Below, piece by piece: positions 3,542 to 29,792 of a DNA stretch of 32,361 nucleotides (positions are counted from its first letter, which is position 1; every line of letters starts with the position of its first letter). The position numbers and the translations under genes were made by a program. Origin of the DNA: a virus; the IMG/VR virus record IMGVR_UViG_3300043773_000634, positions 1 through 32,361 of that record; one strand, written 5' to 3'. The notes beneath the pieces were generated by a model. That model ran no database searches, was not told the origin of the DNA, and worked only from the letters and a program-made list of their open reading frames with translations.

Positions 3542-3585
3542 ATAAATGGCTACTTAAAATAAAAGAATTATTAAACTAAAATGAT

Positions 3586-24143: not shown

Positions 24144-25325
24144 TCACATTACCATGTACCCCGACCCTCTTGTATAGTTATCCTTGATATAAGTACCTGC
24201 ATAACGTATGGCATCCATTGCGTCATCATCCTTCTTACTCACTTGGTCTGTGATAACACCGTTGATAACCTTGCGTTTGTATTTTCTATTTTCCGTTTGC
24301 ACGTTAACCGCCTCATGATGGACAAATACCTTTTGCTCATTGATAAAGTTGATGCCTTTCTCTACTGACTTATCTGCATTCAATACATAGAACCCCGCAT
24401 CTTGAAGGTCGGCAATCATTTCAGGTCTGGCGTAGTCGGCAATTATTTCGACGGTCTTATCTACTCCGCGTTTATTCATCTGCTCAATCAACTGACCTGA
24501 TGTTAATCCTGTCATGTATAGCACTTCCTCGATAAATAATTCGTCCTCATGGAACCATACCTTAACGAGCGCGGTCGGATGTTGATACCCGAAGTCAAGG
24601 CCATAAACGAATTGTGTAAACTTCGAAGGTTTACGTTTGAGGATTTCCCACCGTGAATAAACTGCTTCTTGTAACGACCCGATTTCTCCTAGTCCGTACA
24701 CCTGCCACCAGTTCCACCAATATCCTCGATTGCCTGACTTATCCTCTGCCTCAGCTTTCTCCTTTCTCACCATTAAATTCTGATACACCGCGTCAGGTAT
24801 GCACTCGTTATCCCTATAAGTTAATTTTAAGAATGACGCATCGGGCTGCGTGAGTATTTCAGTATGCGCCCAAAATTCCATGTCCGCGTTGAAGTCTAGC
24901 CATATCTCATTACTACGAATGATTAACGCATCTGCAATTCCATAAGGCACATGGTTAGCCTCGTTGATGAATAGTAAATCGCGTTTACCTGCTGCCTTTG
25001 CTTTACCAACTGAATCGAATGATTTAAACTGCAATCGTGAGCCGTTGCGGAACGTATAGATTAAATCGGTTGCGTTCCATTGGTGGTCGTTCCAACGTTT
25101 CTCATCCGACATAAAGTTTTTGAAAATGTCAATCGCACCATCCTTCAAAGCGGGTAAGGTCTCAGCCGTTACCGTTGCTTTAAATCTAGTCTCCGCGATA
25201 CACTTGTCAATGACGATTGGAATGATACCGTATGTCTTTCCCGAACTTGTTGAGCCTTGAACTACTTTTTTATTGCCCTTCATTTGCAGCATCTTCCGCA
25301 CTGCCGTTGTCATTTGGAACGCCAT
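24144..25325 (-). CDS. terL: Terminase large subunit (TerL)
   Basis: This 393-residue packaging motor has an N-terminal ATPase with Walker A GSTSSGKT (residues 24-31), Walker B with the catalytic acid in DLLFINEANH (about 118-127) and a motor segment HTEILTQPD. The C-terminal RNase H-fold nuclease has its first aspartate in YGLDFGYQHPTAL, IIADYARPE in the middle, and DDDAMDAIRYA as the last acid motif. All parts appear intact. The gene starts 56 bases before the end of the TerS gene, so the two are coupled. It is followed by tail genes, not by a portal. Confidence 0.9.
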   Translation of the reverse strand: MAFQMTTAVRKMLQMKGNKKVVQGSTSSGKTYGIIPIVIDKCIAETRFKATVTAETLPALKDGAIDIFKNFMSDEKRWNDHQWNATDLIYTFRNGSRLQFKSFDSVGKAKAAGKRDLLFINEANHVPYGIADALIIRSNEIWLDFNADMEFWAHTEILTQPDASFLKLTYRDNECIPDAVYQNLMVRKEKAEAEDKSGNRGYWWNWWQVYGLGEIGSLQEAVYSRWEILKRKPSKFTQFVYGLDFGYQHPTALVKVWFHEDELFIEEVLYMTGLTSGQLIEQMNKRGVDKTVEIIADYARPEMIADLQDAGFYVLNADKSVEKGINFINEQKVFVHHEAVNVQTENRKYKRKVINGVITDQVSKKDDDAMDAIRYAGTYIKDNYTRGSGYMVM

Positions 25326-25692
25326 AGTTCACATTGAATATTCTAGGTTCTTCTTTATGTGTTACCTCGATGCGGTCGCCCCATACTTGCGTCCTGAGTT
25401 TTGATAACACGAATTTTAACGTATCAACTTTCAGTCTGTCACGGTTCACATGGTTTGCGCCGACGAATGGTTTCTCGTCATCCTCATCCTCAAACGAAAC
25501 TTTTAACAATAACCCTTCGAGGTAGTTCAGTTGTTTCTCCCGCGCGCGCACGTATTTGCCATACCTAGTTTTATCATTCAGAGCGTACTCAAATTGATGA
25601 ACTGGTAAGTTCAAATCGCTACAGACGTGATGATATCCCTTATGCGTTTGGCTTAGGGCATCTAATACACGGTCAAAATCTTCCTCGGTCAT
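25270..25692 (-). CDS. terS: Terminase small subunit (TerS)
   Basis: This 140-residue protein has an N-terminal HTH-type region (LDALSQTHKGYHHVCSDLNL then VHQFEYAL) for recognising the packaging site, and a central coiled region (ARAREKQLNYLEG-like, here RAREKQLNYLEGLLL). The characteristic DRLKVDTLKFVLSKLRTQVW-GD block follows, seen in many small terminase subunits. The C-terminal tail is acidic and would interact with TerL. Its ATG shares one base with the stop of the small lipoprotein gene upstream (TAATG). Confidence 0.8.
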   Translation of the reverse strand: MTEEDFDRVLDALSQTHKGYHHVCSDLNLPVHQFEYALNDKTRYGKYVRAREKQLNYLEGLLLKVSFEDEDDEKPFVGANHVNRDRLKVDTLKFVLSKLRTQVWGDRIEVTHKEEPRIFNVNYGVPNDNGSAEDAANEGQ

Positions 25693-26050: not shown

Positions 26051-26529
26051 ATTCCTAGTTTTAGATTGTCGATATACTCCCGTGCTGCCTTGGTGCTTAT
26101 TTTGAAGTGTGACGCAAAGTCTCGAACGGTTCTGATACCCTTATCAACATACACTTCGGCCACGATCCTGTTAATTAGGTTCTGTTCATTGGTCATGTAG
26201 TCGTCAATGGCGTTGTATAGTTCCCTGTCATCATCATCCTGTGGCACATCGTGGTAGGTATCGGTAAACACTAACTCAACGGCCTTGCGGTGTTGGTAGT
26301 TCATTTGACTGCCATTGCGTTCAATGGTAGTTTTGATGAAGTGTATAGCCATTTTCTGCATATCTAAATGGCTTTCAAGGTGTGTATAGCTTTCGCGCAT
26401 GAACACGTATGCGTTAGACACAACTGTTTCAGGTTCATATTTACGACCACAACGGTATATGATACCCCTTGCGATACTTACAAGCAGGTTATAGTTGTTT
26501 GTGAAATATTCATCGAGGTTGCTGGTCAT
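26011..26529 (-). CDS. Sigma-70-like / HTH transcription regulator
   Basis: This 172-residue protein starts at MTSNLDEYF. The N-terminal half (YNLLVSIARGIIYRCGRKYE, then PETVVSNAYVFMRES) recalls sigma-70 region 2. The acidic middle is unusual (DVPQDDDDRELYNAIDDYM). The C-terminus carries an HTH (RTVRDFASHFKISTKAAREY) like region 4. A phage late-gene activator or alternative sigma factor would fit its place at the head of the packaging/tail operon, but a TerS-like or other helical DNA-binding protein is possible. A reading from 26679 would run through the upstream small gene in another frame. Confidence 0.55.
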   Translation of the reverse strand: MTSNLDEYFTNNYNLLVSIARGIIYRCGRKYEPETVVSNAYVFMRESYTHLESHLDMQKMAIHFIKTTIERNGSQMNYQHRKAVELVFTDTYHDVPQDDDDRELYNAIDDYMTNEQNLINRIVAEVYVDKGIRTVRDFASHFKISTKAAREYIDNLKLGICKELDLKRNTKD

Positions 26530-26701
26530 ACCATTCGTACCAATTGGTGACGTAAATTTTCCGCGACGACCGCTTACAATGGCACAGTAAGCCCTCAGAT
26601 ACTCCAGTTGCACGTTCGCGGATGCGTTGAAGCATCTTGCACGTTGACTTATCATGTGCGCCTCTGTTCTCATCCGCAAATTTCCTTTCAGCGTTGGTCA
26701 T
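26510..26701 (-). CDS. Small cysteine-containing protein
   Basis: This is a 63-residue protein: N-terminal helix MTNAERKFADENRGAHDKS, then GLLCHCKRSSRKIYVTNWYE and WYDQQPR. The C-x-C followed by S..RK.Y..N.YEWY is a pattern of small phage proteins found upstream of terminase genes. It overlaps the membrane protein gene before it by 14 bases and the sigma-like gene after it by 20. The compact overlap and recognisable end support that this frame, not the extended sigma-like frame, is translated here. Confidence 0.55.
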   Translation of the reverse strand: MTNAERKFADENRGAHDKSTCKMLQRIRERATGVSEGLLCHCKRSSRKIYVTNWYEWYDQQPR

Positions 26702-27037: not shown

Positions 27038-27309
27038 TGCAACCGCTTTGCAACCAAATGCAACCATTTTGCAACCATTTTGCAACCAAAAATAATTCTA
27101 TTATACGTATGTAAATAAGTATGTATCAATATATTACTACGTATAGATGCAACCAGTTGCATGGTTTGGTTGCAGAGTTGCATAACTTTTCGTTTTCTTT
27201 TTTTCTCATTTGGTTTTTTGTGTTTGCAACCTGCAACCTGCAACCAAATACGAGAAAAGCCACGACTGGCGCGGCTTTCAGGTGGTTGCAACCGTTGCAA
27301 CTGGTTGCA
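27038..27309. repeat. TGCAACC word array, candidate replication origin or operator
   Basis: The 404-base gap 27006-27409 has no convincing gene. It holds about 14 copies of TGCAAC(C) on either strand. Five direct copies at 27038, 27049, 27059, 27070 and 27081 are 10-11 bases apart, one helical turn. Then comes an AT-rich stretch (27088-27147) with two TACGTA palindromes. Inverted copies follow at 27148-27161 (TGCAACCAGTTGCA), 27168 and 27176. Three tandem head-to-tail copies start at 27225, 27232 and 27239. A final cluster holds the palindrome GGTTGCAACC (27284-27293), GTTGCAAC (27294-27301) and GGTTGCAA (27303). Iterons next to an AT-rich stretch and a primase-helicase gene fit an origin. 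Phased sites also fit a regulator array. Confidence 0.7.
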
Positions 27310-27409: not shown

Positions 27410-27601
27410 ATGAAAACAAACAGACCAAAAGGAAGACCTTCGAAAAAGATTCTATGCTTCACGTTGAAGATGGAATTTATCAGAGAATTTGACAGCATGA
27501 AAGAAGCTGCTGAGTTCTGCAATGGGTATTACAACCTAATTTCAAATGTAGTTGACCGAGAGCATAGGTCGGCCTATGGGTACAGATGGAAATGGAAGTA
27601 A
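27410..27601 (+). CDS. AT-hook plus NUMOD1-like small DNA-binding protein
   Basis: This is a 63-residue basic protein. Residues 4-12 (RPKGRPSKK) are a good AT-hook, which binds the minor groove of AT-rich DNA. Residues 15-63 follow the NUMOD1 pattern found beside homing endonuclease domains: a short beta unit (FTLKMEFIREFDSM), KEAAEFCNG helix, a second helix, then GYRWKWK. No nuclease domain is attached. It stands alone on the plus strand between its promoter and a terminator, next to the TGCAACC array, so it may bind there. A fragment of a homing endonuclease is an alternative. Confidence 0.65.
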   Translation: MKTNRPKGRPSKKILCFTLKMEFIREFDSMKEAAEFCNGYYNLISNVVDREHRSAYGYRWKWK

Positions 27602-27606
27602 ATGAA

Positions 27607-27636
27607 AAAGCCCCTTAATTGGGGCTTTGTTTTTTT
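27607..27636. terminator. Bidirectional intrinsic terminator
   Basis: AAAGCCCC, a six-base TTAATT loop and GGGGCTTT form a perfect 8-bp stem followed by GTTTTTTT on the plus strand. On the minus strand the stem is followed by TTCATT after a T-run of five. It closes both the small AT-hook gene and the convergent primase-helicase gene, whose last codons lie in the hairpin. Confidence 0.9.
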
Positions 27637-29792
27637 ATAACCTTCCCAACAGCTTGATGGCTGATTCCGAAATACTTACCTATTTCGACCTGTTTAAAGC
27701 CTGCTGAGTAGAGTTGCTTGATTTTCTCATCTCGGGTCTTTCCTTTGAGGGATTGTTCGACCGATTGGATGTCTCGTCGAAGGTCGGTTGATGAGAAGAC
27801 GGTGGTGGCAGTTTTGACAAAATAGTCTGCGATGCGTTTTGCGCCCTTCATTTGTCTCTTACCTACCTCAGGTATTACACCTGCATAGATAGTGTCTATA
27901 ATCGCAAGTAAAAGGGCAAATCGGGGTATATACGTTTTCATCTTACTCAGGTAGTTTTTTAACTCCTGATTATACTCCTGTGAGTTTTGGATGTTAACAT
28001 ACTCTAAATCATACTGTTGATATAATTCGAACGCTTCGGGCGTCATTTGAACGATGGTGCTACCTTGCTCAGGGTCGTATTGGAAGACCTCATCCATGTT
28101 TTCTAGTTTCATTCTCCAAAATTCTTCATACACGGGGTCGAGTTCTTCGGCGTTGAGTGGGTACACCTTGTCTTCGGCGGCGGTGAATAGGAATCGGTCA
28201 ATAAGTCCGTTACCCGCGTACTCGGTTACGACCTTGTATAGCACGTCATGTTGGATAGTACCTATGATGTTGACATTGATGTTCTCAATCATGATAGGGT
28301 CTTTGGTGACGCGGTTAACGATATAGCTCCCGTTATTGAATGATTCAAGCCAAAATTCCTCATCCGAGCCTTTGCGGTACTTGTTCATGTCGTTAAGGAA
28401 TCCCTTTAATTCGTCTTTGTAAAGACCAAGGCCGCGCGTGTTGATAGAGTGAATAGAGTGTAAGGCCTCGACGGTGTAGTCGGATATAATGGTTTGTTTA
28501 AAGAGGGGTTTTTTAGGTTTGGGTTTGGTGTCTGCTTCTATTTCAGCTTGGTATTCTGCTAGTTGTTTGTCGTACTTTCGTTTGCTCTTAGCGTCGATTT
28601 CTGTTAATGGCCTGAGCATTGTTTTGACGGGGTGCGTTTTGATCGTTCCAGGGAATCCGACAACTGCAAACCAAAATATTGTGGATGCTTCCCAACCGTT
28701 TTTCACTCTTAGCTTAAAGCAGTTACCGTTGATGGTAGCAATGGCAAACATAGCTGCTACGGCGGTGAAGTCGGGGTGGAAGTTAAGTGTTCTTTTGAGT
28801 TCTGATATGTGTTCTTGCATATCGGAGGGGAACACGTCGATAGGGAAGAATGGCGTTTCGATTACGGGTTGTTCCTCTTCTTCCACGATGGGCATGAGTG
28901 ATGCTTTTGCTGCTCTCCAGTCCCCTGCGAACTTAAGGATGGTTAGTATGTCGAACGGGTTGTATGCGCAGTTAGCTTGGAAGGGTGCTGCATCGGTAGA
29001 GAACACGTAGAACATATTGAACTTTGCGCCCCATGTTGCGGAGGTAGAGCCTTCGTCTTTGTTCGGTCGTTCCCACAGTTCCACACCGTCAGAACGTTTT
29101 GATACATACTTCCATCCCGCGTTGATGAGTAGTTCTTTGGCAACCATCTCGCCTTCGTTCTTGAACTTGTTTACGGGGTTATCATCAGGCCAACGTTCAG
29201 GCCATTTGCGGGTTGAGGTTGACTGCTTGGTTGTGGGGGAGTATTCGTTAACGTGTTGGTTGAACGATGTGGCACGTTCGATAAGGTAATTGAACACCTC
29301 AACGGGTATGTGTTGCAGCTTGAGTATCTCGTTTTGCAGTAGTTTGTACCCTGTTGACGGTGGGACAACCACGTAACCACCTGTGCCGCGTGATTCAATC
29401 ATGGTCATTCCGTCAGACCAACGGGCGAACACGGAGTTGTGATGTTCGGTGTGGCACTTGAGGTAGATGTGATACCCTTCGGATGGGGTCTGCGCGATTA
29501 CAATGGCCTGTTCACGGATGAGTTGGCGGATGATGTCATCATCAATGAATGTTCGGAACACCTGTTCGATGGGTTGTTTAGCCTTAGCATCGAAGTCAAT
29601 GCAGATGAACCCGTCGGAGACCTTGCCACAGGCGATACCTATCTTTTTTGCCCGTGCGAATCGAATCGGTATGTTGTCGATGGGTACGTATAGGAATGGG
29701 TTTTCCTTAAGCGCTGGTTTTTTATCGTCGCGTAGTGGTAGCGGGTTAAAGCCCTCCATTGCGAACTCTTCTGCGATGTCTGTTAGGGTCAT
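27615..29792 (-). CDS. Primase-polymerase / DUF3987-like helicase replication protein
   Basis: This is a 725-residue replication protein. The N-terminal archaeo-eukaryotic primase domain (about 1-190) has the acidic pair D66 and D68 in FICIDFDAK, SEGYHIYLK with the conserved histidine, and ESRGTGGYVVVPPS. A PriCT-like linker follows. The middle and C-terminal part (about 320-660) resembles DUF3987-type ATPases, with VGFPGTIKTHP as a Walker A-like loop (GxPGTxKT), FKQTIISDYTVEALHSI, and LGLYKDELKGFLNDM. The end (about 690-722) is an HTH: QVEIGKYFGISHQAVGKVIKK. It likely primes and unwinds phage DNA. It is coupled to the 49-residue gene upstream (ATGA) and ends at the terminator beside the TGCAACC array. 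Confidence 0.8.
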   Translation of the reverse strand: MTLTDIAEEFAMEGFNPLPLRDDKKPALKENPFLYVPIDNIPIRFARAKKIGIACGKVSDGFICIDFDAKAKQPIEQVFRTFIDDDIIRQLIREQAIVIAQTPSEGYHIYLKCHTEHHNSVFARWSDGMTMIESRGTGGYVVVPPSTGYKLLQNEILKLQHIPVEVFNYLIERATSFNQHVNEYSPTTKQSTSTRKWPERWPDDNPVNKFKNEGEMVAKELLINAGWKYVSKRSDGVELWERPNKDEGSTSATWGAKFNMFYVFSTDAAPFQANCAYNPFDILTILKFAGDWRAAKASLMPIVEEEEQPVIETPFFPIDVFPSDMQEHISELKRTLNFHPDFTAVAAMFAIATINGNCFKLRVKNGWEASTIFWFAVVGFPGTIKTHPVKTMLRPLTEIDAKSKRKYDKQLAEYQAEIEADTKPKPKKPLFKQTIISDYTVEALHSIHSINTRGLGLYKDELKGFLNDMNKYRKGSDEEFWLESFNNGSYIVNRVTKDPIMIENINVNIIGTIQHDVLYKVVTEYAGNGLIDRFLFTAAEDKVYPLNAEELDPVYEEFWRMKLENMDEVFQYDPEQGSTIVQMTPEAFELYQQYDLEYVNIQNSQEYNQELKNYLSKMKTYIPRFALLLAIIDTIYAGVIPEVGKRQMKGAKRIADYFVKTATTVFSSTDLRRDIQSVEQSLKGKTRDEKIKQLYSAGFKQVEIGKYFGISHQAVGKVIKKQSPN

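Follow-up and report, generated by a model that had tools for sequence, protein, structure and literature searches.

The window, by which we mean the whole stretch of DNA analyzed, is a 32,361-base virus record that encodes both a large and a small terminase (genes at 24144-25692). Some 1-3 kb from these genes, positions 27038 to 27309 hold a dense array of the word TGCAACC in both orientations, next to a gene encoding a 725-residue primase-helicase. The array comprises two sets of sites, referred to here as iterons, separated by an AT-rich gap, with the set of five phased words on the far side of the gap relative to the primase gene (Table 1). A first-pass annotation, made from the letters alone, had proposed this region as a candidate replication origin.

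Table 1 Features of the array and of the neighboring primase-helicase gene (window positions).
Feature	Position	Strand	Basis
Five TGCAACC words in helical phase, steps of 11, 10, 11 and 11 bp (27038, 27049, 27059, 27070, 27081)	27038-27087	+	sequence count
AT-rich gap between the two iteron sets, 18% G+C (genome 43%); likely unwinding element (inferred)	27088-27147		composition
Inverted sites: TGCAACC 27148, GTTGCA 27156, GGTTGCA 27168, GTTGCA 27177	27148-27182		word count
Three tandem TGCAACC words, 7-bp step (27225, 27232, 27239)	27225-27245	+	word count
Terminator-like hairpin inside the array, oriented with primase transcription	27255-27279	-	consensus match only
Palindrome GGTTGCAACC (27284-27293) and further inverted sites, primase side	27284-27309		word count
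Primase-helicase, 725 aa, Prim-Pol (PF09250), DUF3987 (PF13148) and C-terminal HTH; proposed initiator	27615-29792	-	domain matches, predicted fold
C-terminal three-helix HTH of the primase, residues 687-720	27633-27734	-	predicted model, co-variation
Recognition helix 712-720 of the HTH, containing H712, Q713 and K717	27633-27659	-	predicted helix, co-variation

Counting both strands, TGCAACC occurs 13 times within the array and only three times in the remainder of the 32.4-kb contig, so the word is uncommon outside the array. The total of 16 compares with 4.8 expected and was not attained in any of 100 shuffles. With the 17 copies of the shorter TGCAAC in the array, these counts bear out the roughly 14 TGCAAC(C) words described earlier, and the spacings, the 7-bp tandem words and the perfect palindrome were all exactly as annotated. 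In a scan of the whole contig for any repeated 6-mer in 350-bp windows, the array scored 34 and the runner-up 11. The AT-rich stretch of about 60 bases was also confirmed, although it is not the most AT-rich place of the contig, as the 60-bp windows at 3551 and 31728 both reach 13% G+C. The array shows strong predicted folding relative to random sequence (z -7.3), a consequence of its inverted sites. In cumulative GC skew, the window has its minimum next to the array (at 26168 raw and at 26691 after detrending), in agreement with an origin there; nevertheless, this indicator was not consistent over the family, where the mean circular distance of the minimum was 0.217 vs 0.25 by chance.

The primase-helicase carries its Prim-Pol domain at the N-terminus and DUF3987 in the middle of the protein. 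According to structure comparison, the nearest solved structure to the Prim-Pol part is pRN1 ORF904 (1RNI), and the DUF3987 helicase part has an MCM-like predicted fold. The C-terminal helices (687-696, 701-708, and 712-720) come from a predicted model with a mean pLDDT of 87.8. Many relatives of the primase match Pfam HTH families (the matches do not give the position in the protein), and the C-terminal HTH can be aligned throughout the family. A 63-residue HNH-endonuclease-like protein is encoded between the array and the primase gene (27410-27601, + strand), and it had been offered as another possible binder of the array. We ruled it out, given that its gene is missing from a 98%-identical sister (L024) that possesses a complete array; the protein is thus not needed. 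The segment 27321-27614 is an insertion that brings in this single HNH-like ORF together with a terminator located exactly at the stop codon of the primase, and it alters the final primase residues compared with the sister L002. When the inserted + strand gene is set aside, the array lies between co-oriented genes, the 3' end of the primase gene and then a 105-aa gene, and not between two divergent transcription starts as had been proposed.

In order to compare related phages, we collected by wider scans at least 235 loci with a complete 3' end, which were reduced to 88 representatives sharing less than 90% identity with one another. Among the matches listed, a repeated-word array above threshold adjoins the primase-helicase gene in 82 of these 88 non-redundant relatives. 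The arrays scored about 11-40, vs about 6-12 for the second-best window at nearly every locus, and of 39 contigs that could be read completely or almost so, 33 had the array as their top window (in one of the contigs scanned, G407, the primase gene is at the contig end). Of the six representatives lacking an above-threshold array, two (L235 and L279) have weak or degenerate upstream arrays visible by eye, three (L052, L090, and L220) run into the end of their contig, and in the last (L051), which is cut downstream, none was seen near the primase gene. The arrangement is therefore conserved beside the same replication gene, but the word is not: GTTAAC, GTTTAA, GTTACA, GTAAAC, TTCACA, and others were found. 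Two of the conditions under which the first-pass annotation would have been refuted, a word equally frequent elsewhere and an array missing from relatives with these replication genes, were thus not fulfilled. Relatives at 43-53% identity carry another word at the corresponding location (GTAAAA in L004, GTTATA in L005, GTTAAC in L047), which led us to reject a single TGCAACC word conserved across relatives; two others at 34-48% identity (L006 and L049) also use GTTAAC. Searches for named phages as relatives gave no DNA match and only partial protein matches below 30% identity. A class-wide search yielded bacterial DUF3987 proteins (L054-L063) without a GT-word array of this kind, a weak contrast because their frames are shorter (433-494 aa, without Prim-Pol) and only distantly related. 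Dense repeats of unrelated words (AATTAG, GTTGGA, ACCTTA, CCTCAG) were also met in relatives, at about 7200 in L199, 1800 in L220, and 7000 in L128, and at the start of L051.

We analyzed the architecture of 47 arrays sharing less than 75% identity. They contain a median of 11 sites, and the distances between same-strand sites peak at 10-12, 20-24, and 32 bp, with a minor group at 7-9 bp. The largest inter-site gap has a median of 66 bp and 16% G+C, vs a genome median of 34%, and is more AT-rich than its own genome in 46 of the 47 arrays (67 bp and 19% G+C for the window in this comparison). At least two sites flank this gap on each side in 38 of the 47, as they do in the window. Given this recurrence, helical phasing and the AT-rich gap are features of the family.

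A near-consensus sigma-70-like promoter (11/12 match) lies within the AT gap of the window and faces the 105-aa gene, so the conservation could be partly transcriptional. Together with the upstream position of the array in about half of the 82 loci, this promoter might suggest an operator bound by the primase HTH or another regulator and controlling the neighboring operon, with replication starting elsewhere. We consider this explanation unlikely: in the other half of the family the array lies downstream of the primase gene, and hence need not sit at its promoter, yet such downstream arrays keep the two-set plan and a near-constant gap length. Moreover, an operator needs far fewer sites than the eleven or so that are phased here around a gap of 66 bp. 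Dual use is not excluded, and the promoter leaves room for a second, transcriptional role of an array whose main role would be that of an origin.

The variation of the word between phages allowed us to ask which part of the protein varies with it. Word similarity was compared with protein similarity between the 82 loci in a partial Mantel analysis controlling for the rest of the protein. The C-terminal HTH gave a partial r of 0.33, a value not reached in 1000 permutations (largest null 0.119). In a scan of 20-column segments along the protein the HTH was the highest (median 0.009, 95th percentile 0.124), the three best-scoring segments all falling at 696-723; the gene flank without the array, used as a negative control, gave 0.03. 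The next-highest co-variation after the HTH was at residues 491-520, in a strand-rich region of the helicase (partial r 0.19).

When aligned, the words take roughly the family form (G/C)(G/T)TTACAC, and the equivalents of the window residues K717, H712, and Q713, all within the predicted helix 712-720, relate to the left, right, and middle parts of the word, respectively. Arg at the 713 equivalent goes with C in place of T, and at the 717 equivalent Lys goes with G at motif column 4 and Arg with G at column 5. For example, the helices SLQMIYKY and SVQMIYKY pair with GTTTAA, whereas SLRMIYKY pairs with GTTCAA in proteins that are 86-89% identical elsewhere to the SVQM ones. For pairs of proteins 75-90% identical elsewhere, a shared contact triple goes with a word similarity of 0.82 and a different triple with 0.32. 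When the tree was built from the protein minus the HTH, about 6-9 independent pairs agreed with each rule and none or hardly any opposed it. Since we selected the contact residues once the data had been inspected, the matched pairs and the tree are only supportive; the segment scan, the flank control, and a small later set are free of this difficulty. That set consisted of 10 further loci, scored by eye with the residue rules fixed in advance. An adjacent array was present in nine of them, none being seen in the remaining one (L428, truncated upstream), and the rules held in 7 of 8 cases for residue 717 and in 5 of 7 for residue 713, with L407 breaking both rules and L431 one. We found nothing relevant in the literature on co-evolution of a recognition helix and iterons in such phages.

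This co-variation strongly supports a specificity for the word located in the C-terminus of the primase-helicase, and thus one of the two binders proposed by the first-pass annotation, the HTH end of the enzyme; no binding data are available. Because the repeated word changes with a few amino acids in the DNA-reading tail, each phage appears to possess a matched lock and key.

From the conservation of the array beside the primase-helicase gene and the co-variation of HTH and word, we propose that the array is a phage replication origin, at which the primase-helicase binds the words through its HTH and opens the AT gap to initiate replication; we give this reading a probability of about 0.83. 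A primase, helicase, and sequence-specific HTH protein encoded beside an array of its own word around an AT gap fits an origin with a self-loading initiator. In such a scheme, the HTH would bind every GGTTGCA/TGCAACC word, and the spacing of one helical turn would place several copies of the protein on one face of the DNA, on both sides of the AT-rich gap of about 65 bp. The DUF3987 AAA+ helicase part would then assemble at the array and open the gap, and the Prim-Pol part would synthesize the first primers. The word and the recognition helix would evolve together, making origin specificity private to each phage lineage. Binding, melting, and initiation are all inferred. The region is thus very probably an origin, well supported by comparison but not demonstrated experimentally, in the absence of binding, replication, or coverage data.

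Other roles could be considered for an array bound by the initiator. Plasmid iterons often double as copy-control elements, and phage P4, whose alpha protein combines primase, helicase, and origin recognition, has a replication region, crr, separate from its ori; the array, bound by the initiator, could similarly serve in incompatibility, partition, or copy control while the true origin lies close by. This possibility seems slightly more remote than that of an operator, as the array dominates nearly every contig scanned end to end and contains its own AT-rich gap. A packaging (pac) site might be suspected from the nearby terminase genes, but the side of the primase gene on which the array stands differs between family members, and its word co-varies with the HTH of the primase (the terminase was not compared as a partner), leaving this the least credible explanation of all.

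As a replication origin, the array finds its closest parallel in the pri-rep-ori region of SaPIs and E. coli PICIs, where an AT-rich region between two iteron sets lies beside the rep gene (PMC6092414). The window and the family arrays share this two-set plan, and the position immediately 3' of the initiator gene is found in the window and in about half of the family, the others being upstream. In contrast, the present arrays belong to tailed phages, have sites about 11 bp apart, can stand on either side of the gene, and are associated with an initiator that combines Prim-Pol, DUF3987, and a small HTH in a single protein. The window is not itself a PICI or helper-dependent satellite, given that it encodes its own large and small terminase. 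Reading of iterons by a C-terminal domain is known for SaPI Rep and SCCmec Cch2, the latter a helicase that binds short direct repeats (AAGTG) downstream of its own gene (PMC7581432); however, Cch2 has only three iterons and is a D5-type helicase without a fused primase.

As a single polypeptide uniting primase, helicase, and origin recognition, the proposed initiator recalls P4 alpha, which differs in its Toprim-type (DnaG-type) primase from the archaeo-eukaryotic Prim-Pol and DUF3987 found here (PMC4234260). The initiator of pRN1, ORF904, shares the Prim-Pol domain and has a C-terminal DNA-binding domain, with an essential origin 3' of its gene, but this origin lacks iterons, consisting of a 100-nt stem-loop, and the helicase belongs to SF3 (PMC4234260), whereas here there is an iteron array and the helicase part resembles MCM proteins. 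A stem-loop origin of the pRN1 kind was rejected, since iterons are present here and the folding seen in the window was not conserved in the one relative tested (z -1.65). PrimPol-PV1 fusions likewise join DUF3987 and a C-terminal WH/HTH to a primase, as a predicted helicase and origin reader (PMC5862659); in the part of that source available, the role is only a prediction and neither an origin nor a recognition rule is given. Classical plasmid iterons, i.e. direct repeats of 17-22 bp bound by a RepA/RepE winged-helix initiator, are not met here: words of 7-8 bp, 11-bp steps, mixed orientation, and an adjacent primase-helicase set this array apart, in line with the dissimilarity to iterons of about 20 bases pointed out earlier.

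These results supply a predicted origin and initiator for a large group of uncultured phages and extend the PICI-type plan to phages whose helicase belongs to another family. What stands out most is the extent of the natural series in which helices and words match, about 80 protein-DNA pairs that can be used to derive an HTH recognition rule and put it to the test. It is fairly likely, though less so than the origin itself, that this large family has a self-contained, re-programmable origin governed by a residue-to-base rule that is close to being readable, in which T or C accompanies Gln or Arg, respectively, at one position, while a second position has Lys with G at column 4, Arg with G at column 5, or Asn with neither; about a dozen sites would be rewritten at each change of helix, and the origins would be mutually private. 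These findings raise the questions of how some dozen sites come to be rewritten once their reader changes, and of whether private origins spare a phage interference from relatives in the same cell.

TGCAACC tandems with an 11-bp step are also present in numerous unrelated viral contigs, sometimes within coding frames, as could be expected of a selfish or slippage-born microsatellite prone to landing near replication genes. For the present array such a nature is very improbable, its spacers differing within the array, its words being of mixed orientation, and the words of its relatives varying and following the HTH residues. Several of these other repeats were noted. In six contigs (L012, L014, L026, L035, L036, and L040), AACTTGCAACC is repeated at 11 bp in apparently protein-coding stretches. 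In two unrelated viral contigs, a TGCAACC array with 11-bp steps (L010, 3242-3540; L028, 4376-4674) stands straight after the gene for a 1019-aa CHC2/Toprim primase, i.e. the identical word beside a different primase family. Inverted-pair TGCAACC arrays flank an AT-rich stretch in L033 (6169-6414) and L042 (1708-1953), the latter with a DNA-primase-like gene close by. Finally, a TGCAACC array in L015 (1383-1544) is contained in the coding frame of a gene for replication initiation (PHROG 9474), just 5' of a DnaB gene, which recalls the lambda O arrangement.
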